From: an uncultured Bacilli bacterium
GTDB taxonomy: Bacteria; Bacillota_I; Bacilli_A; RF39; UBA660
Reading direction: 5' to 3'
Length of the DNA stretch: 42,290 bases
NCBI GenBank assembly: GCA_947629025.1
Contig: CANRCC010000014.1
Span: 1-42,290, forward strand
The position numbers were made by a program, and so were the translations under genes. Numbering within the stretch: the stretch's first letter is position 1; each line of letters begins with the position of its first letter. Of the stretch, positions 7,545-19,346 are shown piece after piece. Under the pieces are notes generated by a model that worked only from the letters and a program-made list of their open reading frames with translations, did not search any database and was not told the origin of the DNA.

Positions 7545-8209
7545 TTAAGAAATCGTATTATTATTTTCTATTTTATATAAATTATTATAATCTTTACATT
7601 TTGTCATTAAATCATCATGAGTACCAGTACATTTAACTTCATGATTTTTAATAAATATTATATTATCTGCATTTTTAATAGTACTTAATCTATGTGCAAC
7701 TATTATTATTGTATGATCTTGTGATAAATTTTCTATAACTTTTTGAATTTTATTTTGACTTTCATTATCTAAAGATGAAGTACTCTCGTCAAACATTATT
7801 ATATTTGCATTATTTAAAAGTGCCTTGCTATTGCCAATCTTTGTTTTTGTCCTCCTGATATAGTAATTCCATTTTCACCTATTATCGTATCAAATCCATT
7901 AGTTGTTGAACTAATAAAATCATAAATTTCACTTTTTTTACAAACATCTATAAGTTCATTTTCTGTTGCATCTGGTTTTATCAATAAAAGATTTTCTCTA
8001 AACGTCATATTGAATATGTATGGAGATTGCTGTATGTACGCAATATTATTTCTTAGTGTACTTTCATCATAATCATTAATATCCACTTCATCAATAAATA
8101 TTTTATTATCTTCAACTTTATAAAATTTATTAATTAGAGAGAGAATTGTTGTTTTCCCTTCTCCACTTCTTCCAACAATAGCAGTAATCTCATTTTTCTT
8201 TATTTCCAA
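7545..8209 (-). pseudogene. ABC transporter ATPase remnant (truncated and frameshifted)
   Basis: Two abutting frames make one nucleotide-binding domain. The first (8209-7814) has Walker A GRSGEGKTT, a Q-loop (IQQSPYIFN) and the signature ISGGQKQRLAIAR. The second (7796-7545) has Walker B IIMFDES, SSLDNESQ and the H-loop IIVAHRLSTI. A one-base loss after the signature (AG where AGA of the usual ARAL is expected) breaks the frame. The protein begins only a few residues before Walker A, so the start of the domain and the whole membrane domain of what looks like an exporter half-transporter are missing. The truncation lies about 50 bases from the end of the HD gene, at the left edge of the accessory region, and may mark a rearrangement breakpoint. 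Confidence 0.9.
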
Positions 8210-8259: not shown

Positions 8260-8886
8260 TTATTTTTTTGAATTTTCATATTTTTGCAAAAATATAATGC
8301 TATCATTATATATTTTTTTTGCTTCATTAGTCCTTAAATAATTAGGGTTACATTGAGCAAATCTAAACATTTTAATTCTATTTCTATCAAGTGCATCAGC
8401 ATCTTTTAGAATATTTGATAATATTTGAATATTTTCTTTTTCCTTTTTGTTAAATTTATAATTTTTAAAATCAACAATATCATCTGATTTAGCATGGGTT
8501 TCAATTAATAATTCTACCATTTCTAAATCTTTATCATAAAGAACATTTTTTAATCTTTGTTTAGCAATTTTTGCCCCAACAATTCCATGCTTTTTATTAG
8601 AAACAAATAAATTTCTACCACAATCATGATATAAAGCAGAATATAGTAAAACTTCTATATTTTTTAAGTTTTCCCCTTTACTATTTTTCATATTTAATAT
8701 CCAAAAACAATAACATAAAACTCTCTCAATATGCTCCAAATTATGATATGGAAAATGAATTTTAGTATATAATTGTTCTTTAATACCTCTATTAACTAAA
8801 TCATAGATTTGATTAATTTGTTTAGTTTTAAAACCAATACTATTTAAATAATTAGTATCAATATTTTTAATATTGCTCTTTTCCAT
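8260..8886 (-). CDS. HD-domain metal-dependent phosphohydrolase
   Basis: A protein of about 208 residues of the HD superfamily. The metal-ligand pattern is visible: HNLEHIERV (first His), LYHDCGR (the HD pair), KHGIVGAKIA, ETHAKSDD, and ILKDADALDRNRI for the final Asp. Members hydrolyse phosphate esters of nucleotides or act on other phosphorylated small molecules; the substrate cannot be read here. The ATG at 8886 (MEKSNIKN) is chosen because GAGGAGG lies six bases upstream, while the first in-frame ATG sits directly against it. It is transcribed after the HAD gene, from which it is separated by a degenerate copy of the array spacer at 8921-8960. Confidence 0.85.
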   Translation of the reverse strand: MEKSNIKNIDTNYLNSIGFKTKQINQIYDLVNRGIKEQLYTKIHFPYHNLEHIERVLCYCFWILNMKNSKGENLKNIEVLLYSALYHDCGRNLFVSNKKHGIVGAKIAKQRLKNVLYDKDLEMVELLIETHAKSDDIVDFKNYKFNKKEKENIQILSNILKDADALDRNRIKMFRFAQCNPNYLRTNEAKKIYNDSIIFLQKYENSKK

Positions 8887-8920
8887 TTCATGCCTCCTCA
8901 TTGTTTTAGAAAATCATTTC

Positions 8921-8960
8921 ATATCAATTTGATATCCTAAAGAAAAAATCATGACAATTA
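8921..8960 (-). repeat. Degenerate array spacer (copy 0)
   Basis: The plus strand reads TATCAATTTGATATCCTAAAG followed by an A-rich tract, matching the TATCAATCTGGTGCCCTAAAG core of the spacers near 14430, 16415 and 17555. It lies just after the HAD gene stop and before the HD gene, the same position as the other copies. Promoter modules are not recognisable. It marks the left-most detectable trace of the array. Confidence 0.5.
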
Positions 8961-9590
8961 TAATACTTCTCTCAGTTCTTTAATATTTTGAATTTTTATG
9001 GTATCCATTAATATGTTTTCATTATCAGTAACTAAAATAGTTTTAAATCCAAGTTTTGAAGGCTTTTTAATATCTAATTCTAAATCATCACCAATTATTA
9101 TACATTCAGATGGCTTAAATATTCCTTTAGCCTGCAAATAAGCTTCAGCATATGGTTTTATCTTATTTTCACCATAATATTTTTTGAAATACTTATTTAT
9201 TCCCATTGCTTCTAATCTATTTCTTTGAGATTTTTCAAAATAGTTAGATAATAAAACTAATTCATATTTTTTACTTAAATATTGCAAAGTTTGTTGTATT
9301 TCTTGTATTTCATCAAAACTATCAGGAATTGCAGTTTTTAAATGTTTAAAAAATATTTCAAGAAAATTACTATCTAAATTTATACCTAATTGATTACCAA
9401 AAAAATTTAAATAATCAGTTGAATTATAATTGTCATAATGCTTTTCATAATCTTTAATAGAATTTAAAAATATTTCTAAATTCTTATCTGAATATATTCC
9501 AGTTTCTTTTAATGTTTCTGTTATAGTATCCTTAAATTGAACATTTCTAATAAGAGTACCATCTATATCAAAAATTAGCCTTTTTATCAT
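8958..9590 (-). CDS. HAD-superfamily hydrolase
   Basis: Haloacid-dehalogenase-type phosphatase of about 210 residues. Motif I is FDIDGTLI at the N-terminus (nucleophile and acid Asp pair), motif II is LLSNYFEKS near residue 110, and motif IV is IIGDDLELDI near residue 165. A helical cap lies between motifs I and II (subfamily IA-like, of the phosphoglycolate phosphatase and YjjG-like type). The start at 9590 (MIKRLIFDIDGT) is preceded by AAGGAG nine bases upstream; the frame extends ten codons further without a ribosome site. The substrate is unknown. The gene sits directly downstream of a C-type promoter module (9633-9720). Confidence 0.85.
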   Translation of the reverse strand: MIKRLIFDIDGTLIRNVQFKDTITETLKETGIYSDKNLEIFLNSIKDYEKHYDNYNSTDYLNFFGNQLGINLDSNFLEIFFKHLKTAIPDSFDEIQEIQQTLQYLSKKYELVLLSNYFEKSQRNRLEAMGINKYFKKYYGENKIKPYAEAYLQAKGIFKPSECIIIGDDLELDIKKPSKLGFKTILVTDNENILMDTIKIQNIKELREVL

Positions 9591-9632
9591 ACTATTATAC
9601 TCCTTAATAAATATTGTCATATCAATATATGA

Positions 9633-9772
9633 GCATATTTTCTAAATTGACATATATGTCAATTTCAATCTTTAAATAATTTAACAAAGTTTATACATTT
9701 TAAAACTCAAACTTTTACAATCCGAGTTTTATATTAATCTGATTCAAATATAAAGGTTATTTACAACTTTTT
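9633..9772 (-). repeat. Array spacer copy 1 (tmRNA-end-like module plus C-type promoter module)
   Basis: Read on the minus strand from the end of the gene at 9757: AAAGTTGTAAATAACCTTT, then a diverged TCAGATTAATAT trailer, hairpin AAACTCGGATTGTAAAAG with its partner TTTGAGTTTT, a weak promoter, and a 22 bp perfect palindrome (9644-9665, core TTGACATATATGTCAA). It then runs into the HAD gene. The stop codon of the upstream gene lies inside the first module. This copy is the most diverged of the four C-type copies, yet it has the most symmetric palindrome. Confidence 0.8.
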
Positions 9773-10326
9773 AATAATTGAAGATTTTTATCTTGGTTTA
9801 TGTCCTCTGTAATAATCATATCTTCAGTCTTTAATAAAGACAATTTTTCAAATAATTGACAGATAGATAATTGCTCTTCAAATTTATGCTTATAATTAGA
9901 TAATGTTTGTATAAATCTAGGGTCTGATATACTAAAGCAAACTTCAGAAGCAATATGACCTTTTAGTTCTTTATTTTTTTCTTCTGACATTGTTTTAGCA
10001 TCCTCATAAGAATCAAACAGTTCTGAAACAACATCAACTGGATAAGGATTATAATTGAAATCATAATTTATGGTAACTCTTTCTCCTATATATTGATCAT
10101 CATTACGTAATGATGTTTTTAAAGTATCTAAATCCTTATAAGGAAATATGACATTATGAAAAATTTTACTACTTCCATCTGGAAAATATTTGATAGAAGA
10201 TTCAACTACCCAACATTTTGAAACAATATATCCTCTAACAATATCTTTATAATTAGTAATATAGCCACCCTCTTCTTTTAATTCTAATACAGCATATTTT
10301 ATTGGAAAATTATTTTCTCTACTCAT
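9757..10326 (-). CDS. Conserved-looking hypothetical protein of the cassette array
   Basis: A protein of 189 residues, unrecognised. The ATG at 10326 (MSRENNFPIKYAVLELKEEG) follows GGGTGAT. The N-terminal half is predicted beta-rich (GYIVSKCWVVESSIKYFPDG, KIFHNVIFPY), followed by an acidic helical segment (DSYEDAKTMSEEKNKELKGHIA). No catalytic motif, signal peptide or membrane helix is seen. The last codons (AAA AGT TGT AAA TAA) lie inside the array spacer, so the C-terminus could be extended or replaced by recombination. The first 16 codons and the leader of a close paralogue survive as a fragment at 17308-17358, showing that this gene type has been present at least twice in the array. Confidence 0.7.
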   Translation of the reverse strand: MSRENNFPIKYAVLELKEEGGYITNYKDIVRGYIVSKCWVVESSIKYFPDGSSKIFHNVIFPYKDLDTLKTSLRNDDQYIGERVTINYDFNYNPYPVDVVSELFDSYEDAKTMSEEKNKELKGHIASEVCFSISDPRFIQTLSNYKHKFEEQLSICQLFEKLSLLKTEDMIITEDINQDKNLQLLKSCK

Positions 10327-10367
10327 AAAATCACCCATTAGCATTATAACATAATTTTATATTAACT

Positions 10368-10405
10368 AAAAAAATTGTACTCAATCTACAATAGATTAAG
10401 TACAA
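10368..10405 (-). terminator. Strong terminator of the 422-residue gene and end of a solitary array RNA
   Basis: A 14 bp stem (TTGTACTTAATCTA / TAGATTGAGTACAA on the minus strand, one GU pair) with a 3-base loop is followed by seven T. It is the clearest intrinsic terminator in the accessory region. It lies between the gene ending at 10476 and the gene starting at 10326, and is homologous to the hairpins at 12421-12449 and 18788-18816. Confidence 0.85.
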
Positions 10406-10478
10406 ACTGTTATTAGGGTAAATACTTAACATGCGAGAGTTAAATTTTACTCGAAAGTCCGAGTTTACTATCTATCTA
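10368..10478 (-). repeat. Array spacer copy 5, with RNA-like module but no promoter
   Basis: On the minus strand: TACTAGATAGATAG (trailer-like, holding the TAG stop of the upstream gene), hairpin ACTCGGACTTTCGAGT, a second hairpin (ATTTAAC / GTTAAGT, 10424-10445), then the 14 bp terminator hairpin. The last ~80 bases align with the candidate antisense RNAs at 12411-12524 and 18779-18890. The shared promoter and GAAA-loop block is missing and no hydrophobic peptide frame faces it. It probably works only as a terminator, or is a relic. Confidence 0.65.
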
Positions 10479-11744
10479 GTACACTAAAATCTTTCCTTTT
10501 TCTTCATATTTAGCTAGCTCGCTATCTAAATGCTTGTTAACAAAATAAGAATTAAAATCCATCTGTGATAATTCATCATTATATTTATCATATATAATTC
10601 TAGGAACAATGTGCAAATTCCATCCTCTTTTTAAATATTCAGAAAATTCTGTTATTCCATTTAATGAACTTGTTGTTATCGTATGATCAACTGTTGATTC
10701 AATTTTATGAAAACCACAAAATCTTACAAATACATCCCTAATATCATTTGCAGTTAAATATTGTAATTTTTCGATTATTTCCTTTTTATGACATGATTCA
10801 TTTATTCTACTAAATGATGAATATAACGAAGATTCTGCAGCTAAATGGCCAATGATTAATGTGATAAGATTTTTTTGATAACTTCTTTCAGGATGAGGCC
10901 AGTTTATTTTAGAAGAATGTATTAGTTTTTCTATTTCTTCTTCAGACAATTTTAACACACTTTTATAGAATTCTCTATCATGTTCTACTTCAGCAGTGAT
11001 AATGGTAGGAAGTTTATACATTAAATGTGAATAATGTTCAAATTCATTATAAGTAATATAACCTCGTTTTAATATATCGATAATGTGTTGATAATGATTT
11101 ATATTAGGCACTTTTTTGTTTTGTTTTAAGTGATCATATATTACCATATTAATTTGATATGTTAAATTTCCTTGTGCATGTCCAAAACCAGTATTATATA
11201 GATAACCATTAGGAGTTATATACCAAGAGTTTGGCCAAATAAGCATTTTTTCATCACTTTTAGGTGGGATTTTGATTGTTGATTTAAAATCCAATGTAAT
11301 TAAAATTTCTTGTATTTCTTTTTGGGTATTTAATAAAAATTCTTGATAATCTGGATAAAAACTAGTTAAATAAGGTATATATAAAAGCATCTCATTTAAC
11401 AATAAATATAAATTCCAAGATGTTAATTTTATATTTTTCTTTAAATCATAATGTGTCTCATAATAATCTTCTTTTTTCTTTTGAAAAAAAGGCCCACTAT
11501 CTAATAAAGATTCATAGGATAACAAATTATAATTAGGTATATTTAAAAAAAGATTTTCATCAAGAGCAATTATCAATTTATCTATTTTATTCAATTTTGG
11601 AAATAAGGTTTTTAATTGTTTTAAAAGTTCTGTAGAAAAAGGTATCTCTCTTATAAAACAATCTTGATTTTTACCAGAAGTTTCTCTAAGTAAAGAAGTT
11701 CTAAAATCACTTGCTTTCTCTAATTCTGAAAAATACTTATACAT
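10476..11744 (-). CDS. Hypothetical protein, 422 residues
   Basis: I do not recognise the family. The ATG at 11744 (MYKYFSELEKASDF) follows TAGGAAG; an upstream GTG overlaps the probable -10 (GATATAAT) and is less likely. The protein is mostly helical with many aromatic residues, without membrane segments. Visible stretches include LIWPNSWYITPNGYLYNTGFG and VEHDREFYKSVLKLSEEEIE. A segment near residue 275 (NWPHPERSYQKNLITLIIGH) and VRFCGFHKIESTVDHTI near residue 340 hold several His and Cys residues that might bind metal. It follows the small membrane-protein gene by about 50 bases and may be co-transcribed with it. Its TAG stop lies inside an array spacer. Confidence 0.65.
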   Translation of the reverse strand: MYKYFSELEKASDFRTSLLRETSGKNQDCFIREIPFSTELLKQLKTLFPKLNKIDKLIIALDENLFLNIPNYNLLSYESLLDSGPFFQKKKEDYYETHYDLKKNIKLTSWNLYLLLNEMLLYIPYLTSFYPDYQEFLLNTQKEIQEILITLDFKSTIKIPPKSDEKMLIWPNSWYITPNGYLYNTGFGHAQGNLTYQINMVIYDHLKQNKKVPNINHYQHIIDILKRGYITYNEFEHYSHLMYKLPTIITAEVEHDREFYKSVLKLSEEEIEKLIHSSKINWPHPERSYQKNLITLIIGHLAAESSLYSSFSRINESCHKKEIIEKLQYLTANDIRDVFVRFCGFHKIESTVDHTITTSSLNGITEFSEYLKRGWNLHIVPRIIYDKYNDELSQMDFNSYFVNKHLDSELAKYEEKGKILVY

Positions 11745-11795
11745 AGAATCACTTCCTATAATTTTTATCACTTATTATATCACTTTTTATAATAA

Positions 11796-12143
11796 TTAAA
11801 AATAAAAATTTATAATTTTTTCTCTAAATATAAATAAAATAATTATAAATAATAATAATATTAAAAAAGATTTAGGACTATAATTATCTTCATGTGTTTT
11901 ACCATTAATGATAATAAATCCTATTTCATCTAAAAATAAGCCAACACTAATTGATAACAAATATAAATTCGTATAAATATTAGATATGCAAAAAAGTATT
12001 ATTGTAAACAGTAAGCCATACATCCAATGATGAGTTCTAAATTGTTTTATAGTTGGGCTAGGTTTGGGAAATAAATAAACCCACACTCTAATTAATAAAA
12101 TAGATATTGTAGTAAATAAAAAGAATTGATCATATAAATTCAT
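11796..12143 (-). CDS. Small integral membrane protein (HHWMYG / GKTHEDNYS family)
   Basis: A protein of 115 residues with four predicted membrane helices: FFLFTTISILLIRVWVYLF; WMYGLLFTIILFCI; LYLLSISVGLFLDEIGFIII; FLILLLFIIILFIF. The conserved-looking polar signatures RTHHWMYG, GLFLDEIG and GKTHEDNYSPKS lie at the membrane faces and would fit a metal- or substrate-contacting site. I recall such signatures in uncharacterised bacterial membrane proteins, so no function is assigned. It is expressed from a near-perfect block-A promoter (TTGTCA, 17 bases, TATAAT), with GGTGAT upstream of ATG. Confidence 0.7.
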   Translation of the reverse strand: MNLYDQFFLFTTISILLIRVWVYLFPKPSPTIKQFRTHHWMYGLLFTIILFCISNIYTNLYLLSISVGLFLDEIGFIIINGKTHEDNYSPKSFLILLLFIIILFIFREKIINFYF

Positions 12144-12158
12144 ATTATCACCACTTAA

Positions 12159-12200
12159 ATTATAACATGATATTTTGTTTATGACAAAATAATTAATCCT
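12159..12200 (-). promoter_or_regulatory. Block-A promoter with palindrome, ahead of the 115-residue membrane protein
   Basis: The minus strand has TTGTCA (complement of 12182-12187), a 17-base spacer and TATAAT (complement of 12159-12164). The -35 lies in the inverted repeat ATTTTGT-cataa-ACAAAAT (12172-12190). The GGATTAATTATTTTGTCAT stretch recurs with small changes near 13310, 16340, 17455 and 18645, so this is a repeated promoter module with a likely operator. Confidence 0.75.
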
Positions 12201-12328
12201 CTTTCCTAGCTATAATTACATAGAATAAAAAATTACAAAATTTACTATATTTTAGATGAAATGTTAAATAAATCAAAAAGTGTTGTAACAAATAAATTAT
12301 TAGGGTATTTCATAATTTTTTTGATAGT

Positions 12329-12412
12329 ATGAATAAGAAGGATTTTTTAATTTTATCTTTAATCATTCTTATCTTGCTATTAGTATTATTACTATTTATA
12401 GTTCTAATATAA
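12329..12412 (+). CDS. Candidate type I toxin: 27-residue hydrophobic peptide
   Basis: ATG to TAA encodes a peptide starting MNKKDFLILSLIILILLLVL, a basic N-terminus followed by one uninterrupted hydrophobic helix that reaches the C-terminus. This is the form of membrane-active type I toxins, though it matches no family I can name. It is the only plus-strand frame in the accessory region that looks real. It converges on a structured minus-strand RNA gene (12411-12524) whose terminator hairpin begins eight bases after the stop, so a toxin mRNA running to the hairpin at 12541-12567 would be fully antisense to that RNA. A homologous frame without a start codon lies in the same position next to the second RNA copy (18709-18789). 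Weak points: no clear Shine-Dalgarno is visible, and a short hydrophobic frame could arise by chance in AT-rich DNA. Confidence 0.5.
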   Translation: MNKKDFLILSLIILILLLVLLLFIVLI

Positions 12413-12524
12413 AATAAAATCACCTAACTCAACTGCTTTGAATTAGGTGAAACCAATCTTTTGGCAACACTCAACACTAGCATATTGAATGTTTCCTTTT
12501 TATTTTATGCAAGTTTCCTTGACA
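12411..12524 (-). ncRNA. Candidate antitoxin RNA, about 113 nt
   Basis: The promoter on the minus strand is TTGATA, 17 bases, TATTAT (12530-12558). The predicted RNA starts with a CAAG-GAAA-CUUG hairpin, then an A-rich linker with AAAAAGG, an 8 bp hairpin (CATTCAAT / GTTGAGTG), and a 12 bp terminator hairpin (12421-12449) followed by ATTTTATTTT. The first ~52 bases are almost identical to the copy at 18779-18890, while both later stems differ in sequence but keep pairing. It lies head-to-head with the hydrophobic peptide frame, the layout of 3'-overlapping type I antitoxins. Confidence 0.55.
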
Positions 12525-12637
12525 AATACATAATAATATAAAAACGTACTTTTATCAAGTACGTTTTCTATCTTTGCGTGTATTTTTCCAAGTTTCTTAT
12601 CAATCTAGTATAGTTGAGAAAGTTATCTACAACTTTT
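12421..12637 (-). repeat. Array spacer copy 6 (tmRNA-end-like module plus RNA module)
   Basis: From the end of the gene at 12658, minus strand: AAAGTTGTAGATAACTTT hairpin, CTCAACTATACTAGATTGATA (17 of 21 bases match the ssrA end and trailer), a degenerate CTTGG/CACG hairpin, an 11 bp terminator hairpin at 12541-12567, then the promoter and structured RNA. It uses the same downstream module as the spacer at ssrA, but with the T-arm-like upstream module of copy 4. Confidence 0.8.
12541..12567. terminator. Bidirectional hairpin terminator
   Basis: Perfect 11 bp arms AAAACGTACTT and AAGTACGTTTT with a 5-base loop, with T-rich sequence on both sides. On the minus strand it would end transcription from the gene at 12658-13239, and on the plus strand it would end the candidate toxin mRNA. 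It overlaps the -35 of the RNA promoter. Confidence 0.7.
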
Positions 12638-12657
12638 TACTTTCTGATATTATAATT

Positions 12658-13239
12658 TTAATAAATTTTAAAAGAATCGTTTTTTTTGATAATTTTCACT
12701 AACTCTTTATCTTTACTTAGTCCAATTCCTACAGTAGTATTTTTTTCAATTTGATATACACCAGGTGCAAAATAACGTGTCGTCATTGGATTATTATAAT
12801 GATATCCGCAAATATTCCCATTTTCTAGTGCTTCACGTGGCATATTATTTTTTACATATATATTTGTTCCCCATTCCTTATCTTCATATGATAATTTAAG
12901 ATACCCAGCACTTGGAATACTTCCATCAAAAACTACCTTTGAATCATCTAAATGGATACCAATAACGTTTGTTTTTAATTCACATTTATCCTGTGGCTCA
13001 ATAACTTGATTCTCTAAACAAATTATTGAAAAACAAGTTTCACTTTTTTTAACATAAGAGTCAATTAATTGATTTAAGTTTTCTAATCTAGTTTTTAATT
13101 TTATAAATGCTTTAACATCTATACCTTTTGCAAACCTCATTTCATCATAAATATGCATTAATTCATCTTTTAAATATAAAATAGATATTAATTGACTATC
13201 ATCATATATTTCAAAAAAACTTTTTTCTTCGCTATCCAT
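12658..13239 (-). CDS. Hypothetical protein of the cassette array, 193 residues
   Basis: Unrecognised. The ATG at 13239 (MDSEEKSFFEIYDDSQLIS) has GTGAGG six bases upstream; a GTG four codons earlier is part of that site. The N-terminal ~85 residues are predicted as a helical coiled segment (LYLKDELMHIYDEMRFAKG..., LKTRLENLNQLIDSYVKKSE). The C-terminal ~100 residues are predicted beta (VVFDGSIPSAGYLKLSYEDKEW, TRYFAPGVYQIEKNTTVGIGL), ending with FKIY. No membrane segment or catalytic motif is seen. It is preceded by a block-A promoter and followed by array spacer copy 6. Confidence 0.7.
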   Translation of the reverse strand: MDSEEKSFFEIYDDSQLISILYLKDELMHIYDEMRFAKGIDVKAFIKLKTRLENLNQLIDSYVKKSETCFSIICLENQVIEPQDKCELKTNVIGIHLDDSKVVFDGSIPSAGYLKLSYEDKEWGTNIYVKNNMPREALENGNICGYHYNNPMTTRYFAPGVYQIEKNTTVGIGLSKDKELVKIIKKNDSFKIY

Positions 13240-13270
13240 AGTAAACCTCACTCCCTTTTCAATATTATAA

Positions 13271-13325
13271 ATATATTATAAAAAAATTACAACATTTTAT
13301 TTTGTTTTTGATAAAATAATTAACC
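13271..13325 (-). promoter_or_regulatory. Block-A promoter ahead of the 193-residue gene, fused to the end of the DHH gene
   Basis: On the minus strand GGTTAATTATTTTATCAAAAACAAAAT (13299-13325) is a block-A copy: -35 TTATCA, 17 bases, TGTAAT. Here no tmRNA-end-like module precedes it; the stop codon of the DHH gene (GTTGGTTAA) is contributed by the block itself. Confidence 0.6.
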
Positions 13326-14276
13326 AACATTATATTTTTTATTTTCTGTTAATACCTTTATTAAAGTATTTTTCTTTTCTTCAGAAATAGGACTTGATGC
13401 TGCTGTATCATGCCCTTTACCTCCCATAGCTTCTGCAACTAATCTAACATTTACATTATCTCTAATATTTCGATAAGAAATAGTACCATAATCTAGTGCT
13501 ATAAGCATTGCAAAATCCATATCAAAATTATTTTGTCTAAAAAATTCTGCTAAATCATTCCTATATTCATAATCAATAAAAACAATACCAGCTTTTAATC
13601 CAAATATTTCTTTATAATAAACTTTATTAGCATAATTAGAAAGTTTTTCTTCAACTTGCTGTATTTTATTATTAATTAACATATTTTCTAAATCATTAAA
13701 TGAAAATCTTTTTCCATCCACAATACTTAACTTATCATACATTAATTTTATGTATCCATTACATCCAACAGAATCAAATAATAAAGTTAATTCATGGGGC
13801 ATTTCATCGTTATATTTTGTTTTCCATTCCCAAGTATCATATTTTCTTGTTAGTTCAGAAAAATCTTCAATCTTTTGATTATCTTTATCTATAAAGCCAT
13901 TATTTACAAGCCATTCATAAAATAAACTGGTACCACTGCAAAGGCCTTTTTCATCAGATATTCTTATTGTAGCAAAATCATACTTATTATAATTACCTTC
14001 TATCGCTGATTTATGATGATCAAATATTAGAAACTTATCTCTTAATTTACTATCATTTGCTACTCTAGATAACATTGGTTCTTCTAGCCACAAATCTGTT
14101 ACAAAAATCATATCATAATTATAGATTCTTTCATCATCATAGTATTTTTTAATCTCATTTTGAAGATTGAATGTCTCACATAATACATATTCAACTCCAT
14201 CAAAGGCTAATTTAGCTAAAATAGCATTCCCCATTCCATCTATGTCACTTTTATGAGTAAATAATAAAATTTTCAC
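13320..14276 (-). CDS. DHH-superfamily phosphoesterase (NrnB-like)
   Basis: A protein of 318 residues of the DHH/DHHA1 superfamily. Motif I is THKSDIDGMGNAIL near residue 8, a metal-ligand DLWL follows near residue 67, and the name-giving motif is FDHHKSA near residue 86. The C-terminal substrate domain has the GG-x-GH signature in GGKGHDTAASSP near residue 286. Such enzymes are Mn-dependent and degrade short oligonucleotides or cyclic (di)nucleotides, or act on related phosphoesters. GTG is the start, six bases after AGGAGA. Expression is from C-type promoter module copy 2, with an ideal extended -10. The stop codon falls in a block-A promoter that serves the next gene. Confidence 0.9.
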   Translation of the reverse strand: MKILLFTHKSDIDGMGNAILAKLAFDGVEYVLCETFNLQNEIKKYYDDERIYNYDMIFVTDLWLEEPMLSRVANDSKLRDKFLIFDHHKSAIEGNYNKYDFATIRISDEKGLCSGTSLFYEWLVNNGFIDKDNQKIEDFSELTRKYDTWEWKTKYNDEMPHELTLLFDSVGCNGYIKLMYDKLSIVDGKRFSFNDLENMLINNKIQQVEEKLSNYANKVYYKEIFGLKAGIVFIDYEYRNDLAEFFRQNNFDMDFAMLIALDYGTISYRNIRDNVNVRLVAEAMGGKGHDTAASSPISEEKKNTLIKVLTENKKYNVG

Positions 14277-14330
14277 TATAGCATCTCCTATCTTATTAAG
14301 ACTTTTTATATTGAGTTTGTCAGTTTAAAA

Positions 14331-14468
14331 GTGCGTTTTCTAAATTGACAGATATATCAATTAAAATCTACAAAAATTATAACATAAATTTGAACGTTTT
14401 AAAACTCGAACTATTAAAGTCCGAGTATCGATTAATCTGGTGCTTTAAAGAAAGAAGTACAACAACTT
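14331..14468 (-). repeat. Array spacer copy 2 (e1 end plus C-type promoter module)
   Basis: Minus strand, after the deformylase gene: AAGTTGTTGTACTTCTTTC, TTTAAAGCACCAGATTAATC (the CACCAG and trailer shared with the ssrA end), hairpin ACTCGGACT / AGTTCGAGT with TTTTAAAA, an extended -10 TATGTTATAAT (14376-14381), and the palindrome AAATTGA / TCAATTA (14342-14363). It drives the DHH gene. Confidence 0.85.
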
Positions 14469-14475
14469 ATAATTA

Positions 14476-15105
14476 TTACTTTTTTAATTTTTTTTCAAAA
14501 CTATTTTGTTTCATTAAATCTTCGTATTTACCAACTTTAGATATAATATTATAAGGATGTGATTGTCTAAAAAGTTTACGCTCTTCTCCTGGCATTTCTA
14601 ATACTTCATCTGCTATATCCATATGTAATATTCCATCTAAATGATCCATTTCATGTGATAAAACAGTAGATTCAAATTCCTCAAAAATCTCTCTATGTTT
14701 TTCTCCATCAATATCAAAATACTCAACTAATATTTTATATGGTCTTTTTACATGCCCCATAAAGTTCATACAACTTGTACAAGCCTCCCAGTACTCTGTA
14801 AGACCATATCTTTCAATAATCACTGGATTTATTAATACTCTTGCTTCATTATAATTTTCTTCTTTTTCTGTAGTTTCATTTTTTTGCATTTTATTAATAA
14901 TGTCCAAATTTGTATTTTTTATATATACAAGTCTTTTTGGAATTCCAAGTTGTACAGCAGCCATTGCCATTACTCTATTTTCCTTACAAAATTCTGCTAA
15001 CACATTAATATCATTCTTCAAATTCTTGTCATTTAAATTAACCTTAACAGAAACTTGTCTCAAATACTTTTCATTATCTTCTATTGTAATTGCTTTTATT
15101 TTCAT
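14476..15105 (-). CDS. Divergent peptide deformylase
   Basis: Metallo-hydrolase fold removing N-formyl groups from nascent peptides. All catalytic residues are present: Gln52 in AMAAVQLG (motif 1), Cys109 in EACTS (motif 2), and His151, Glu152 and His155 in SHEMDHLDG (motif 3). The motifs are off-consensus: the usual GxGLAAPQ has Met in place of Gly, and EGCLS reads EACTS. Length is 209 residues with an acidic insert (QKNETTEKEENYNE, 74-87). It lies alone in the cassette array rather than with fmt, so it is probably a second, specialised or resistant deformylase rather than the housekeeping copy. Some insensitivity to actinonin-type inhibitors would be plausible, but that is inference. The start has TAAAAGGAG upstream. 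Confidence 0.9.
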   Translation of the reverse strand: MKIKAITIEDNEKYLRQVSVKVNLNDKNLKNDINVLAEFCKENRVMAMAAVQLGIPKRLVYIKNTNLDIINKMQKNETTEKEENYNEARVLINPVIIERYGLTEYWEACTSCMNFMGHVKRPYKILVEYFDIDGEKHREIFEEFESTVLSHEMDHLDGILHMDIADEVLEMPGEERKLFRQSHPYNIISKVGKYEDLMKQNSFEKKLKK

Positions 15106-15150
15106 ATTTAATTTCTCCTTTTAAAATATTGATCATTTCAATATGCAAAT

Positions 15151-15287
15151 GTGTTTTCTAAATTAACAGATATATCAATTTCAATCTATAAATATTTTAG
15201 CATAAATTTAAACATTTTAAAACTCGAACTATTAAAGTCCAAGTTTGGTATCACTATGGTACGAGCGACATAGTAATCTACAACTTA
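15151..15287 (-). repeat. Array spacer copy 3 (C-type promoter module)
   Basis: The C half (15151-15226) matches copy 4 with one difference in 76 bases. The palindrome is at 15160-15181. The upstream half differs from the other copies: TAAGTTGTAGATTAC (holding the stop codon of the upstream gene), then ACTATG / CATAGT arms flanking GTACCATAGTGATACC, before the AAACTTGGACT / AGTTCGAGTTT hairpin. The extended -10 is TATGCTAAAAT. It drives the deformylase gene. Confidence 0.85.
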
Positions 15288-16259
15288 TTTAATTAATTGT
15301 TCAATAGTTTGTATTACTGAGTTAGTTATAGGTTTATGTTTTATATCAAAGTTGTTTTTTCTTTCCTCATCAAGTTTGTAATCAATCGTCATATCTACAT
15401 TATCCTTTATTGTTTGTGCATCATATCTATCCTTTGGTCTAGAATTTTTCTTTGAATTGTAAATACTCTCTAAACTCATCATTCTATATGGTATGCCTAT
15501 ATGTTCTCTTATCTGGCTAGAAAAAGACATTTCTGTATATTTTTTAGAAAAATGGTGTTCATCAACAAATAATTGGCTATTACTACTTTGATTTTCAAAA
15601 TAATATTCCTTAGTAGTTATACTGTTATCAGGTTGTCTTTCAAATAAGAATAATCCAATACTCATAGGAGTATCTTTATATACGATTTTATATTCATGAC
15701 CATTCATTTCTTTATGTTCCATATTACTAACAAAATTAAAATCTGGACTAGAATCAACAAGTTCTTTTAAAGCAACCAATTGGTGTTCATTGATAAATAA
15801 ATCTAAGTCTCCATGGTATCTTTTTAGTTCATGTCCAGTTGCTAAATATCCCATAAGACCACCAGTATAATAACAATCAAAATTGTTATTTAATAATTCG
15901 TTAAATTTATCAAAAACTTCAATGACTAATTGATGATTTTCATTTAAAGACATACTAGGATATTCCATATTCATGTTTTTAATCCAGTTGAGTCTTTCGA
16001 TTAGATTACTAGCAGATGTGTATTTTTCAGGATTTAAACTTATAATGGCATCAACATTTGAAAAAATATCCTCCGTAGTTATCTTTTTTCTATTTAATAA
16101 ATCATTTAATGAAACTAGAATAGCGTCAATAGCATCATTTATGTTCATTGAACATAATCTATTAATGGTGTAAATAATTTCTTCTTTGTTAGTTATGTTT
16201 GCTTTATGAGCAAATGTATAAACTAGTTGAATAATTGCTTGTTTTTGATTTTCGTCCAT
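15285..16259 (-). CDS. Nucleotidyltransferase-fold protein (AbiEii / aminoglycoside-nucleotidyltransferase-like)
   Basis: A protein of 324 residues. The central segment GGLMGYLATG...KRYHGDLDLFINEHQL near residue 140 is a Pol-beta-type nucleotidyltransferase signature: glycine-rich helix, then RYHGDLDLF with the two metal-binding Asp. The N-terminal ~110 residues are helical (ANITNKEEIIYTINRLCSMN), and the C-terminal part has a basic KKNSRPKDRYDAQTI stretch typical of the MNT/AbiEii-like group. Members include defence toxins and antibiotic-modifying enzymes, and the target cannot be told from sequence. The ATG at 16259 is preferred because the earlier ATG overlaps a TGATATAAT promoter element. 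The stop codon lies inside array spacer copy 3. Confidence 0.75.
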   Translation of the reverse strand: MDENQKQAIIQLVYTFAHKANITNKEEIIYTINRLCSMNINDAIDAILVSLNDLLNRKKITTEDIFSNVDAIISLNPEKYTSASNLIERLNWIKNMNMEYPSMSLNENHQLVIEVFDKFNELLNNNFDCYYTGGLMGYLATGHELKRYHGDLDLFINEHQLVALKELVDSSPDFNFVSNMEHKEMNGHEYKIVYKDTPMSIGLFLFERQPDNSITTKEYYFENQSSNSQLFVDEHHFSKKYTEMSFSSQIREHIGIPYRMMSLESIYNSKKNSRPKDRYDAQTIKDNVDMTIDYKLDEERKNNFDIKHKPITNSVIQTIEQLIK

Positions 16260-16329
16260 GTTATGTAACCTACTTTCTTTCATTATTATATCACATTAGC
16301 AAATTATACTTCTAAAATTTATTTATCTA

Positions 16330-16454
16330 TTTTGTTTATGACAAAATAATTAACCCCTTCTAGGCTTTTTTACAAGTCGTTTTCTATCTTTGCTCGTATT
16401 TCTCCGAGTTTACTATCAATCTGTGCCCTAAAGGAAGATGTACAACAACTTTTT
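16330..16454 (-). repeat. Array spacer copy 7 (e1 end plus block-A promoter)
   Basis: Minus strand: AAAGTTGTTGTACATCTTCC, TTTAGGGCACAGATTGATAG (CACCAG has lost one C), hairpin ACTCGGAGAAATACGAGC, a linker AAAGATAGAAAACGACTTG, then GCCTAGAAGGGGTTAATTAT and the block-A palindrome ATTTTGTcataaACAAAAT with its -35 TTGTCA. The linker also occurs in copy 6 and beside ssrA. It drives the nucleotidyltransferase-like gene. Confidence 0.85.
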
Positions 16455-16660
16455 ATTTATTTTCAACAACTATTTGATAATCATCGGAATATATAATATT
16501 TTTAACTTTTTCTAAAGGGTTATTGATTTATGAATCAATCATTATATACATTTTACTAAATTATTAAAAAGTAGTAATAGATTATGCCATTTTATATACT
16601 ATCTTACCTTTTTTATATTTCATTTTCTAATAGTTACATAATTTATTTCATGTACATTAA
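16455..16660 (-). pseudogene. Remnant of a decayed cassette gene
   Basis: No intact gene lies between the kinase stop (16704) and spacer copy 7. On the minus strand a short frame starts MKYKKGKIVYKMA and stops. Near the spacer a coding-like tail reads EKVKNIIYSDDYQIVVENK, ending in TAA directly before AAAGTTGTTG. The position of this tail relative to the spacer is exactly that of intact cassette genes. The middle is AT-rich with stops in all frames. It probably represents a degraded cassette; its family is not identifiable. Confidence 0.4.
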
Positions 16661-16703
16661 TGTTATGTTCTTATAGTATGAAAATTTCTTTACAACAACA
16701 ATA

Positions 16704-17291
16704 TTATTTTAAATTTTTACTTAATACCCAAGACAGATAATTGTTTTCGTTATCTAGTATGTATTTATAATCTAATAATGGCTTAAATTTTTTTATTTTT
16801 TGTATTGCTTCATTTAAAATCTCATCTTTGCTTTTATTATATACATCAATTATAACTTCATTTGGTAATAAATGTCTATTTTTTATTTTTTCATTTGAAT
16901 TTACAACATTATCTAGTTTAAATAATCCTCCTTCATTATTATTTCTATGTATCATTTGCTTTTTTATTTGTTCTGAATTACTTGATATAAGCCTTAAAAT
17001 AATAAAATTATATCCCTTAAATATTTTAGGTATTTCTCTTGCTCTTACATCATCAAAATCTAATGCTACAATATTTTTAAAACCTTTTTTGTAAAAGTAA
17101 TCTAATTGTAATAAAAAGTTGTCCCAACATATTTTCTCTTCAAATATTCCTTCATCTTTACAATTTTCAGGAATACAAAATTCCGGAACCATATTTTGTT
17201 CAAAATATACCCCATTAAAATATTTATATAGTTTTTGAGCTAAAGTAGTTTTCCCTACTGCACTTGGTCCAATTATAAATATAAAATCCAT
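16704..17291 (-). CDS. P-loop nucleotide kinase-like protein
   Basis: A protein of 195 residues. Walker A is GPSAVGKTTLAQKL near residue 8. Downstream LDFDDVRAREIPKIFKGYNFIIL resembles the second acidic strand of small AAA/kinase families, and an arginine-rich LIDs-like stretch (QMIHRNNNEGG) follows. This is the pattern of shikimate/gluconate kinase-like or zeta-toxin-like phosphotransferases; the substrate is unknown. ATG at 17291 has AGAGGATG upstream. The start is nested directly behind a 16-codon fragment of another gene (17308-17358), whose own leader and a block-A promoter lie further upstream. Confidence 0.8.
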   Translation of the reverse strand: MDFIFIIGPSAVGKTTLAQKLYKYFNGVYFEQNMVPEFCIPENCKDEGIFEEKICWDNFLLQLDYFYKKGFKNIVALDFDDVRAREIPKIFKGYNFIILRLISSNSEQIKKQMIHRNNNEGGLFKLDNVVNSNEKIKNRHLLPNEVIIDVYNKSKDEILNEAIQKIKKFKPLLDYKYILDNENNYLSWVLSKNLK

Positions 17292-17307
17292 AGTTATCAT
17301 CCTCTTT

Positions 17308-17358
17308 TTATAAATCCATTATAGCATATTTTATTGTAAAATAATTATCACTAATCAT
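17308..17358 (-). pseudogene. 5' fragment of a paralogue of the 189-residue cassette gene
   Basis: A 16-codon frame MISDNYFTIKYAIMDL then TAA corresponds to MSRENNFPIKYAVLEL of the gene at 9757-10326. The leaders also match: GTACAATTCTAATTGGTGAT here against GTTATAATGCTAATGGGTGAT there. So the promoter-proximal part of a second copy remains and the rest was replaced by the kinase gene, whose ribosome site begins just past the stop. It might still be translated as a leader peptide. Confidence 0.65.
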
Positions 17359-17439
17359 AAAAATCACCAATTAGAATTGTACAAATTTAATATTACTAAG
17401 AAGATTTTTGCATAATAATTAATATATTATTTAAACTAT

Positions 17440-17587
17440 ATTTTATTTATGACAAAATAATTAACCCCCTAGGTATTTTGACAAGTATATCAAAATGACT
17501 TAAGGGGGTACTCTTTTATATAAATGTTCGAAAAAGTTCGAACAGAAACGTCACTGGTGCCCTAAAGGAAGAAGTACAACAACTTTT
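17440..17587 (-). repeat. Array spacer copy 8 (e1 end plus long hairpin and block-A promoter)
   Basis: Minus strand: AAAGTTGTTGTACTTCTTCC, TTTAGGGCACCAG, after which the shared trailer is replaced by TGACGTTTC. An 8 bp perfect hairpin follows (TGTTCGAA / TTCGAACA, 17525-17544). Next comes a long imperfect stem: ACCCCCT...TTTTGA with TCAAAA...GGGGGT, about 17471-17518. Last is block A with the ATTTTGT / ATAAAAT arms. The change of sequence exactly after CACCAG suggests a recombination joint there. Confidence 0.8.
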
Positions 17588-17662
17588 ATATATATATTTG
17601 TTTAAATAATTTTATAAATTTCTTGCCTAAATATCATGTTTTTTTATTTTTAATCAACTTTC

Positions 17663-18088
17663 TTATTCAGCCATATAATTTTTTATTTCGTTTAACTTTT
17701 CTTCGGTAAGTTCAATGCCGCCTTTAAAGTTTATTGCTCCAGGCCAATCATTATCTTTCCATTCCATATTGAATAAACTTACATCTTTGTCATATCTGGG
17801 GAATGCATGATAATGAACAAAATAATCTCTCATCATCATTATAAGATAATTAAACTTTATTGCACCAAATTTCTTAGTACATACTTCTTCATACCATTTA
17901 ATAACTTTAGGAAATTCTGCTGCTTCTTCTGGAAGCATATCAGCAACAGATGGTGTCTCTCTTTTTAGAAGGATTACAGCGTCTCCTAATGTTGCTTGTT
18001 TTTCTCTAATACAAACTATCCAATATTCAAATTCTTTAATACATCTTGCTTCTGGTTTGAATTTACTCATAAAATCTAAATTACTCAT
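17663..18088 (-). CDS. HIT-like protein
   Basis: A protein of 141 residues. The motif VHYHAFPRYDK near residue 95 matches the HxHxxPR core of HIT-like nucleotide hydrolases/transferases. LGDAVILLKRETPSVADMLPEEAAEF earlier is the usual HIT strand-helix segment preceding the helix with KFNYLIMMM. The family cleaves dinucleoside polyphosphates or nucleoside-phosphate adducts, and the substrate here is unknown. ATG at 18088 (MSNLDFMSKF) has GAGGAGGATG upstream; the frame opens 12 codons earlier without a ribosome site. It is expressed from C-type promoter copy 4 and followed by spacer copy 8. Confidence 0.8.
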   Translation of the reverse strand: MSNLDFMSKFKPEARCIKEFEYWIVCIREKQATLGDAVILLKRETPSVADMLPEEAAEFPKVIKWYEEVCTKKFGAIKFNYLIMMMRDYFVHYHAFPRYDKDVSLFNMEWKDNDWPGAINFKGGIELTEEKLNEIKNYMAE

Positions 18089-18132
18089 AACCATCCTCCT
18101 CATTATGCATATTGCTTTTGACAATATGCAAG

Positions 18133-18271
18133 TGTGTTTTCTAAATTGACAGATATATCAATTTCAATCTATAAATATTTTAGCATAAATTTAAACATTT
18201 TAAAACTCGGACTTTTACAGTTCGAGTTTGGTATCAATTTGATGCAGTTGAGAAAGTTATTTACAACTTTT
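18133..18271 (-). repeat. Array spacer copy 4 (e2 end plus C-type promoter module)
   Basis: The best copy for reading the module. Minus strand: hairpin AAAGTT-GTAAAT-AACTTT, CTCAACTGCATCAAATTGATAC (17 of 22 bases match the ssrA acceptor strand and trailer), then hairpin AAACTCGAACT / AGTCCGAGTTT with TTTTAAAAT (18203-18229) as a weak terminator. An extended -10 TATGCTAAAAT follows, then the palindrome AAATTGA / TCAATTT (18143-18164) just downstream of the predicted start. It drives the HIT-like gene. Confidence 0.85.
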
Positions 18272-18370
18272 CAAAAAAAACATATTTAAACATTGATTGA
18301 AGAATAATTACTCTGTTTATCATTATATAACTAACTTTATTGAAGCTTATCACGATAATAGAGTGCTATA

Positions 18371-18595
18371 TTAACAATCTTTACTCCAATCCTCATAAGG
18401 ATCATATCCATTTTCTTTTTCCCACAAAATATGATTATCTCTAGCATTTTTTATAGCAGGACAGCCATTATTAGACACGGCACTAGCTCCATCTGTTACA
18501 ACAAAGAATGGTAAATTATAATTTTGAGCAAGCTTTTTTACCTCTTGGCAAAATTGCCTTGCTTTTTGTATTTGCATGTTACTTTTATAGTTCAT
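18371..18595 (-). CDS. Small hypothetical protein (NGCPAIKNARDNHI...EDW type)
   Basis: A protein of 74 residues. The N-terminal half is a basic helix (IQKARQFCQEVKKLAQNY), then a strand (LPFFVVTDGASAV), then the dense motif NGCPAIKNARDNHILWEKEN ending in DPYEDWSKD. I recall similar short proteins in gut bacteria and phages but know of no function. GGAGG precedes ATG. It is the first cassette downstream of ssrA, about 370 bases from the tmRNA end. About 90 bases after the stop hold nothing recognisable before spacer copy 4. Confidence 0.7.
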   Translation of the reverse strand: MNYKSNMQIQKARQFCQEVKKLAQNYNLPFFVVTDGASAVSNNGCPAIKNARDNHILWEKENGYDPYEDWSKDC

Positions 18596-18636
18596 ACAGC
18601 TACCTCCAATAATTAATATTATATCATACTCCTACA

Positions 18637-18660
18637 AAATATTTAACCACCTAGGTATTT
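18637..18660 (-). promoter_or_regulatory. Degenerate block-A copy ahead of the 74-residue gene
   Basis: Minus strand ACCTAGGTGGTTAAATATTT then TGTAGG matches the block-A core (CCTAGGGGGTTAATTATTT). The distal palindrome arm has been replaced. A TGATATAAT extended -10 lies about ten bases downstream and probably drives the gene. Confidence 0.5.
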
Positions 18661-18708
18661 GCAAAATATATTAAATTAACTTTGTAGATTATCCTAATTT
18701 CTTTATAA

Positions 18709-18789
18709 AAAGATTTATTAATCTCATTTCTAATACTAATTATCATTTTATTAATAGTCTGTTTAATAATTCTATGTATAAAGAAATAG
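18709..18789 (+). pseudogene. Dead second copy of the hydrophobic peptide gene
   Basis: This open frame of 26 codons reads KDLLISFLILIIILLIVCLI then ILCIKK and a stop. It aligns with KDFLILSLIILILLLVL of the peptide at 12329-12412 (11 of 24 positions identical, the rest hydrophobic). Where the ATG should be there is TTA TAA, so no start remains. Its stop overlaps the terminator hairpin of the RNA copy at 18779-18890, the same arrangement as in the intact locus. Confidence 0.5.
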
Positions 18790-18890
18790 CACTCAATCTA
18801 GCATAGATTAAGTGCTTACCACTTAAGGACAAGTACTCAACTCGGCAAAGTTAAGTCTTCCCTTTTTATTTTATGCAAGTTTCCTTGACA
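18779..18890 (-). ncRNA. Second copy of the candidate antitoxin RNA, directly after ssrA
   Basis: The promoter on the minus strand is TTGTAA (18919-18924), 17 bases, TATTAT (18896-18901). It is followed by the same CAAG-GAAA-CUUG hairpin and A-rich linker as the RNA at 12411-12524 (about 52 bases nearly identical). An ACTTAACT / AGTTGAGT stem and a 13 bp terminator stem (18788-18816) follow, then ATTTCTTTAT. The stems differ from the other copies by paired changes. The last hairpin may also terminate readthrough from ssrA. Confidence 0.55.
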
Positions 18891-18971
18891 AATACATAAT
18901 AATATAAAAACGGCTTTTTTACAAGTTGCTTTCTATTTTTACTCGAATTTTCCGAGTTTCTATCAATCTGG
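18781..18971 (-). repeat. Array spacer copy 9, fused to the ssrA 3' end
   Basis: Directly after the encoded CCA of tmRNA the minus strand continues GATTGATAG, hairpin AAACTCGGAAAATTCGAGT, AAAAATAGAAAGCAACTTG, and then the RNA module shared with copy 6. The trailer and hairpin are the same as those following CACCAG in the array spacers. This ties the array to the ssrA end. Confidence 0.85.
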
Positions 18972-19346
18972 TGGAGCTGAGGAGATTCGAACTCCTGTCC
19001 AAAAATATATCACAATAAGTATCTACAAGTTTAGTTAGTTAATAAATTTCCTAATTTATATAAGTAACTAACAACCTACAAATTAGTAAGCTTATTATTA
19101 TTCGTTATTACTACTAAGCAAAGTAATAATATATCTTGCTATTTGTGAATCCCCTATAATCTACGCAAGAAAAGAAAATAGAGAATTGCATTTCTGACTT
19201 AAGCAGCTACGGCAACACTATTACTTCTGAATAATGAAGCAAATGCATTTTTAATTTTGTTTCCAATTATTTTTATTTGCACGTAACGAGTGCCTTCGAC
19301 TTGCAACTTAGAGCTAAATATTCCTGTCGAAACCAAATGCAGCCCC
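18969..19346 (-). ncRNA. ssrA: Transfer-messenger RNA (tmRNA)
   Basis: The 5' end GGGGCUGCAUUUGGUUUCGACAGG and the 3' end with T-arm GGAGUUCGAAUCUCC, acceptor AGCUCC and encoded CCA are diagnostic. The acceptor strands pair (GGGGCU with AGCUCC, one GU). It is a one-piece tmRNA of about 378 bases. The tag frame ends ...NAFASLFRSNSVAVAA then TAA, so the proteolysis signal is AVAA rather than the common ALAA, and the tag appears long for a bacillus. The resume codon is uncertain; GGA in GGAAACAAAATT is the best in-frame candidate after the first pseudoknot. smpB and rnr lie immediately upstream on the same strand. The 3' end borders the accessory array. Confidence 0.97.

Follow-up and report, generated by a model that had tools for sequence, protein, structure and literature searches.

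The capture of genes as cassettes is familiar mainly from integrons, which use tyrosine integrases, and rows in which recombinase-free relatives stand in tandem are known for the SCC/ECC elements. In SCC/ECC, the large serine recombinases CcrA/B/C insert the element in the 3' region of rlmH, and the att sites are dyad-symmetric, dyad symmetry being an expected feature of serine-recombinase sites (PMC6222049). CIMEs have kept their attachment sites, have lost integrase and transfer genes and are stacked with functional relatives (PMC5704250). The site-specific serine-recombinase IMEs (integrative mobilizable elements) of the Firmicutes, Tn4451-like and others, carry a serine recombinase and a relaxase, have short direct repeats and disrupt dispensable genes, the ends of tRNA genes being targets of tyrosine integrases (PMC5704250).

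The window studied here, a 42,290-nucleotide stretch of DNA from an uncultured Bacilli bacterium, makes up the whole of contig G000:C14; the assembly to which it belongs measures 1.12 Mb and is 91% complete. Like an integron, it holds short same-strand cassettes in tandem, with a shared site between them, diverse accessory genes and a fixed attachment site at the head; however, no intI-type gene was found in this 91% complete genome, the attC boxes RYYYAAC and GTTRRRY were present in 0 of 85 cassette sites, the serine recombinase is encoded by elements of its own, and the role of head falls to many tRNA and tmRNA genes. With SCC/ECC the system as a whole has in common a large serine recombinase (LSR), insertion at the 3' region of a gene and dyad-symmetric att sites, but the LSR reaches 140 bits where the CcrB cut-off is 900 and 95 where that of CcrA is 700, several tRNA/tmRNA targets are used per genome instead of rlmH, and the cassettes measure 0.5-5 kb as against tens of kb. 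The window cassettes have kept sites at both sides, recombinase and relaxase models gave no match among the cassette proteins scanned, which is a CIME-type trait, and their arms are common to the LSR elements of relatives; unlike CIMEs, these units are very small, stand up to nine in a row and recur at several tRNA genes per genome. The LSR elements themselves resemble Firmicutes serine-recombinase IMEs in their serine recombinase, relaxase and short direct repeats, but they sit behind the CCA of tRNA/tmRNA genes, leave the target intact and carry a companion protein of about 90 aa between the right arm of the site (P') and the LSR. In the searched portion of the text of a large LSR survey the word tRNA is absent (PMC10083194), and the open-licence papers searched yielded no description of such elements. 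From comparative evidence we consider it very probable that at least nine movable cassettes are lined up at the 3' end of ssrA, with joints that would be attP-like sites for the LSRs of integrative mobilizable elements, by which the cassettes would be moved in trans.

A tandem array of cassettes behind ssrA

All the evidence below is comparative sequence from MAGs, the contigs of which often break within such arrays. Upstream of ssrA, the window carries genes reading as smpB and RNase R. Away from ssrA, mostly uncharacterised genes follow on a single strand (minus), and between them lie spacers with a common core. Each spacer has three parts: a variable left arm P (for example AAAAGTTGTAGAT... 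and AAAGTTGTTGTACTTCTTCCTTTAGGG), CACCA as the core, and P', the right arm, which reads GATTGATAnnAAACTCGRACTTTT, usually with a terminator-like hairpin and then a promoter-like stretch. A cassette starts directly past one CACCA, with P' first, and runs to the next CACCA, with P last; most cassettes contain one or two genes. In the first site of the window the left side is supplied by ssrA itself. Core boundaries were located at 18969, 18240, 17555, 16422, 15257, 14438, 12606, 10477 and 9740. A further boundary, at 8930, is degenerate, and nine cassettes of 685-2129 bp are thus delimited in the window. Across the genomes examined, 32 cassettes had both ends delimited. The features are as follows.

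18969 to 19346, minus strand: ssrA (tmRNA), target gene heading the array (ARAGORN; Rfam RF00023, 156.6 bits)
18935 to 18973, minus strand: attL-like site, ssrA end CACCA and then P' arm GATTGATAGAAACTCGGAAAATTCGAG
18240 to 18968, minus strand: cassette 1, 729 bp, single gene for a 74-aa protein, 18371-18595 (no assigned function)
18206 to 18271, minus strand: site A1, P-core-P', boundary 18240/18239
17555 to 18239, minus strand: cassette 2, 685 bp, one gene 17663-18088
17521 to 17586, minus strand: site B1, boundary 17555/17554, second P' type GTGACGTTTCTGTTCGAACTTTT
16422 to 17554, minus strand: cassette 3, 1133 bp, P-loop-like gene 16704-17300 (weak match)
16388 to 16453, minus strand: site B2, boundary 16422/16421, core short of one C
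15257 to 16421, minus strand: cassette 4, 1165 bp, gene 15285-16283
15223 to 15288, minus strand: site C1, boundary 15257/15256
14438 to 15256, minus strand: cassette 5, 819 bp, gene 14476-15105 for a peptide deformylase homologue
14404 to 14469, minus strand: site B3, boundary 14438/14437
12606 to 14437, minus strand: cassette 6, 1832 bp, genes 13320-14276 and 12658-13251
12572 to 12637, minus strand: site A2, boundary 12606/12605
10477 to 12605, minus strand: cassette 7, 2129 bp, genes 11796-12143 and 10476-11771
10443 to 10508, minus strand: site D1, boundary 10477/10476
9740 to 10476, minus strand: cassette 8, 737 bp, gene 9757-10344
9706 to 9771, minus strand: site E1, boundary 9740/9739
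8930 to 9739, minus strand: cassette 9, 810 bp, gene 8958-9620 for a HAD-type hydrolase, with the degenerate site as its end (boundary 8930/8929)
8260 to 8929, minus strand: possible old cassette 10, gene 8260-8901 with an HD domain, no right end identified
18634-18660, 17425-17478, 16314-16367, 13284-13337 and 12157-12196, minus strand: copies of a second repeat

A 30-nt profile built from the window copies gave nine matches in the window and none in a shuffle, which bears out the cassette-end repeats reported in a first-pass annotation of this DNA. P and P' form an imperfect dyad, scored at 0.417 against 0.281 +/- 0.010 for shuffled sequences, a statistic that overstates significance because the arms are related sequences; the centre that fits best falls between positions -5 and -4 of the core. 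Several sites of the window are degenerate and the core of B2 has lost a base, so part of the array may be fixed.

The gene 13320-14276 of cassette 6 is DHH-like, slightly below the Pfam cut-off, and this cassette possibly represents two cassettes with a decayed middle site. Defence-protein models found no convincing match among the window cassette proteins. The second repeat, GGTTAATTATTTTGTCATAAACAAAATA, contains the dyad TATTTTGT-CATAA-ACAAAATA, imperfect in some copies, and lies upstream of several cassette genes; it may serve as an operator or promoter. An ABC-transporter ATPase at 7545-8209, where the array has its far end, is split into two ORFs of 83 and 131 aa and appears to be a decayed gene.

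Targets and distribution of the sites

A pattern search detected 16 sites in the genome of the window and sites in 67 of 141 genomes of the family, while a reversed control pattern, run over the same genomes, gave zero matches. In the genome of the window, sites also stand at genes for tRNA-Ala, Glu, Arg, Leu (two) and Met. For 133 of the 219 distinct sites the preceding gene is that of a tRNA or tmRNA, with an offset of zero in 132 of these 133 and the ending CACCA in 128, a preference that is partly ascertained since most loci were fetched with a pattern containing CACCA. The dominant targets are Leu-CAA, Thr-GGT, tmRNA, Thr-CGT, Leu-TAG and Arg-CCT. The first-pass view of the spacers as attachment sites, with the ssrA 3' end as insertion target, is in agreement with these data but was too narrow, ssrA being one of about 18 targets. 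The rule that the cores of a cassette match is broken in at least one case (L177), where the head is CACCA and the tail CTCCA.

Class-wide, the site was detected in 26 of 54 sampled genomes of the same family versus 1 of 341 others. Named matches come from MAGs titled Bacilli, Tenericutes, Erysipelotrichaceae, Bacillales and similar, many of them from rabbit gut, and an RF39-like lineage is likely. A viral origin was rejected, the exact pattern having no match in 2.9 million viral contigs, as was an origin from a known phage or plasmid, where no record covers the site and partial AT-rich stretches alone were matched.

Two arrays of the genome of the window (L102, L103 / L035; G000:C6 and C8) have sites 1-3 kb behind tRNA-Arg(TCT) and tRNA-Thr(CGT), with no recognisable GATTGATA site at the tRNA itself; they are perhaps headed by other P' types, or decayed. 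Among the first genes behind the sites, a KilA-N-like gene ranks second in frequency, with 7 cases (L106, L128, L177, L195, L197, L219 and L274), and several of these cases show a P' variant with a longer hairpin loop.

Recurrence of cassettes as units

Cassette 2, a unit of 685 bp, has a counterpart of equal size on another contig of this genome, 93% identical and placed behind tRNA-Ala (L033, 1851-2535). The homology starts right past CACCA and stops with CACCA, and the 60-nt flanks are unrelated (18/60 and 19/60 identical positions). The protein of cassette 2 has a 93% identical copy behind tRNA-Thr in another genus, and other window cassette proteins show 83-88% identity to proteins of other arrays: the cassette 1 gene is 88% identical to a copy in G109, behind a cassette-type site, the gene of cassette 5 recurs at 87% identity in the same-genus species G105, within a different array, and the cassette 7 gene 10476-11771 has an 83% identical copy behind tRNA-Thr in G004. 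Whole cassettes with intact ends recur at different targets and in other genera with 83-94% protein identity; for comparison, SmpB is 82% identical to that of a same-genus species and about 65% to those of the two other genera measured. At the two orthologous loci checked, Leu-CAA and Arg-CCT, the first cassettes of the genome of the window and of G105 are unrelated.

Large serine recombinases linked to the same arms in relatives

In relatives, the same P' arm stands behind tRNA/tmRNA genes; next come the protein of about 90 aa, an LSR (domains PF00239, PF07508 and PF13408), a relaxase of the Mob_Pre type and cargo. Behind the ends of Leu, Gly, Thr, Phe and Cys tRNA genes or tmRNA, thirty different LSRs, all from a single clade, were located at a distance of 405-690 bp (1990 bp in one case). 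Having their own integrase and, in several cases, a Mob_Pre relaxase (PF01076) adjoining the LSR, these elements would match the IME concept. The identity of the LSRs is correlated with that of the P' arms (Mantel r 0.72, 0 of 2000 permutations): LSR pairs at least 80% identical have 23 of 26 P' positions in common, and pairs at 45-50% have 7.7. The P' arm of site B1 is identical over 23 nt to that of an element in G032 whose LSR is of a different subfamily. The right ends of LSR elements carry the same P arms as the cassettes, as in the same-genus genome G105, where an LSR element ends with AAAAGTTGTCGTACTTCTTCCTTTAGGGCTCCA, 31 of 33 nt being those of the B-type arm of the window.

Of the 11 genomes whose LSR shares 60% identity or more with that of L278, 10 had sites, versus 57 of the 130 others (Fisher p = 0.003). 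For the whole LSR clade, no association with GATTGATA sites was seen (28/55 vs 39/86, p = 0.60), which is attributed to other LSR subfamilies with other P' arms. Generic counts of serine recombinases (PF00239) were uninformative, since G136 has sites and zero PF00239. Neither an LSR of the clade nor a copy of the 90-aa protein was detected in the 91% complete genome of the window, where an LSR could be missed, and no LSR of the clade was found at E <= 1e-60 in 39 of the 67 site-bearing genomes, so the cassettes look non-autonomous. The link with LSRs came to light only through gene order behind tRNA-borne sites.

In most of the elements seen, the conserved protein of about 90 aa is encoded between P' and the LSR (L193 3524-3790, L037 14329-14601, L337 3641-3925 and others). 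Its AlphaFold2 model has a pLDDT of 87.5; no Pfam or NCBIfam match and no significant PDB fold match were obtained, and the protein is a candidate directionality factor or regulator. In one genome (G107:C14), two LSR elements (L305 / L334) with the same LSR match, of equal score and with one stop each, stand behind tmRNA and tRNA-Leu, which is consistent with a recent multi-target insertion.

Likeness of the cassette ends to ssrA

The first-pass annotation had proposed that the ssrA attachment site, with its T-arm, acceptor strand and trailer, was the ancestor of the spacers or the model that they evolved to match. The minus-strand end of ssrA reads GGAGTTCGAATCTCCTCAGCTCCACCA, the boundary, and then GATTGATAGAAACTCGG...CGAG. 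The 17 of 22 agreements counted by eye between CTCAGCTCCACCAGATTGATAG and CTCAACTGCATCAAATTGATAC (copy A1) were recovered, but 9 of the 22 positions lie past the end of ssrA. What had been called the trailer, GATTGATAG and the CTCG hairpin, is not ssrA sequence but belongs to the first inserted cassette, as its P' end; in many relatives without the site, CCA (query position 378) is exactly where homology to ssrA ends. Over the 19 nt upstream of the core, the 81 cassette arms show on average 4.83 matches to ssrA against 4.90 after shuffling, and for most window copies the closest gene 3' end is that of a tRNA, rather than ssrA; on average the class closest to the cassette arms is tRNA-Gly, not tmRNA. 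Once composition is controlled, the similarity is thus lost for everything upstream of the core. The pairing of the left arms is a weak signal: their folding is slightly above that of shuffles (mean z -0.84) and a dyad occurs in 42 of 81 arms against 25 expected, counts that are inflated because the arms are related to one another, with centres mostly 18-22 nt from the boundary, roughly in the T-arm register.

Apart from this weak hairpin excess and the A1 agreement, descent from ssrA is favoured by the 6 of 8 nt that A1 and A2 share with ssrA just upstream of the core (2 of 8 in the other window arms) and by an arm at L202 that carries the ssrA ending CCTCAGCTCCACCA. However, the conserved GATTGATA... 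stretch lies outside ssrA and is present behind many other tRNA genes, and the cassette arms match instead the P arms at the right ends of LSR elements. As likeness beyond CACCA is at chance level, descent of the arms from ssrA is unsupported and we hold it to be very unlikely; on these alignments, the dependable likeness to ssrA is confined to the core, the putative shared recombination sequence. A further idea, in which the tails of the cassettes would be copies of tRNA acceptor strands or would stem from duplication of the target site, was suggested by exact 6-mers in 15 of 81 cases against about 1 expected, and was dropped because the arms are mutually related and, by inspection, the tails are unlike the head tRNA of their own array.

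Which enzyme, and whether the cassettes still move

A tyrosine recombinase, whether an integron IntI, a phage integrase or the host XerC/XerD, is a natural candidate for moving the cassettes, tRNA/tmRNA 3' ends being its classic targets and XerC and XerD being present in the genome of the window. Tyrosine recombinases were searched in this genome, in 12 site-bearing genomes and in the 141 family genomes. The genome of the window encodes two PF00589 proteins only, which from their sequences were judged to be XerC and XerD; neither in it nor in 14 other site-bearing genomes were there more than two tyrosine recombinases per genome, those inspected looking like XerC/XerD, and no site was seen in the fetched flanks of the tyrosine-recombinase loci inspected. 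With integron R boxes in none of the 85 sites, and LSRs rather than tyrosine recombinases inside the elements that have these ends, there is little chance that an enzyme of this family is responsible. The hairpin-like arms flanking a short conserved core could also recall single-strand transposition by a HUH enzyme (IS200/IS605-like Y1) guided by hairpins at both ends, but 8 of 12 site-bearing genomes, that of the window included, are without Y1 transposases and the linked enzyme is a serine recombinase, and this explanation is hardly credible.

More weight should be given to the view that the array is a series of decayed LSR-element remnants stacked by repeated insertion, with no movement of units today. 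Tandem CIME-IME accretion of this classical kind is known (PMC5704250), and it would be compatible with the degenerate window sites, with the core lacking a base and with the LSR missing from most site-bearing genomes. Nevertheless, intact-ended cassettes recur across targets and genera at 83-94% protein identity, to be compared with 82% and about 65% for SmpB, and the cassettes are short, with mostly one or two same-strand genes, a control region of their own and no recognisable LSR remnants. Simple accretion without mobility is therefore judged rather unlikely.

Proposed mobility of the cassettes

In the reading that we prefer, movement in trans by LSRs, the cassettes are best seen as probably non-autonomous units, mostly of one or two genes, stacked in integron-like arrays. 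LSR elements would insert directly behind the CCA of tRNA/tmRNA genes and leave the gene intact, and the LSR of a visiting element would excise and insert cassettes in trans; alternatively, in LSR-less genomes, cassettes may have been left behind once the LSR element was lost. Insertion at an empty tRNA end would give tRNA-P'...P-downstream. The array could then grow into a tandem when a circular cassette (P-P') recombines with the resident tRNA-P' site, although insertion of an attP into an existing attL is non-standard for serine integrases and counts against this step. Strand exchange might take place at the central dinucleotide corresponding to tRNA positions 72-73, CA in most cases and CT for tRNA-Gly and tRNA-Cys, as suggested by the dyad centre between -5 and -4 and by L340, which also ends with CTCCA and is the only LSR element at a CT target whose right end is visible.

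A broader proposal is put forward tentatively, and we rate it a little below even: that this is a gene capture analogous to that of integrons but built on LSRs, in which cassettes would be exchanged among many tRNA/tmRNA genes and between genera, every suitable tRNA gene being a potential array head and dinucleotide 72-73 the point of exchange. Several of the statistics are inflated by correlated, related sequences; a plausible case can be made, on sequence grounds, for a distinct gene-capture system. If it is right, the reaction of attP with a tRNA-bearing attL is specific and directly testable, and serine integrases accepting many tRNA ends might become tools for multi-site integration. It would also explain the gene variation seen behind tRNA genes in this uncultured lineage of gut Bacilli. 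These uncultured gut bacteria with reduced genomes appear to keep integron-like stores of cassettes, for which tRNA and tmRNA genes would be the docking points.
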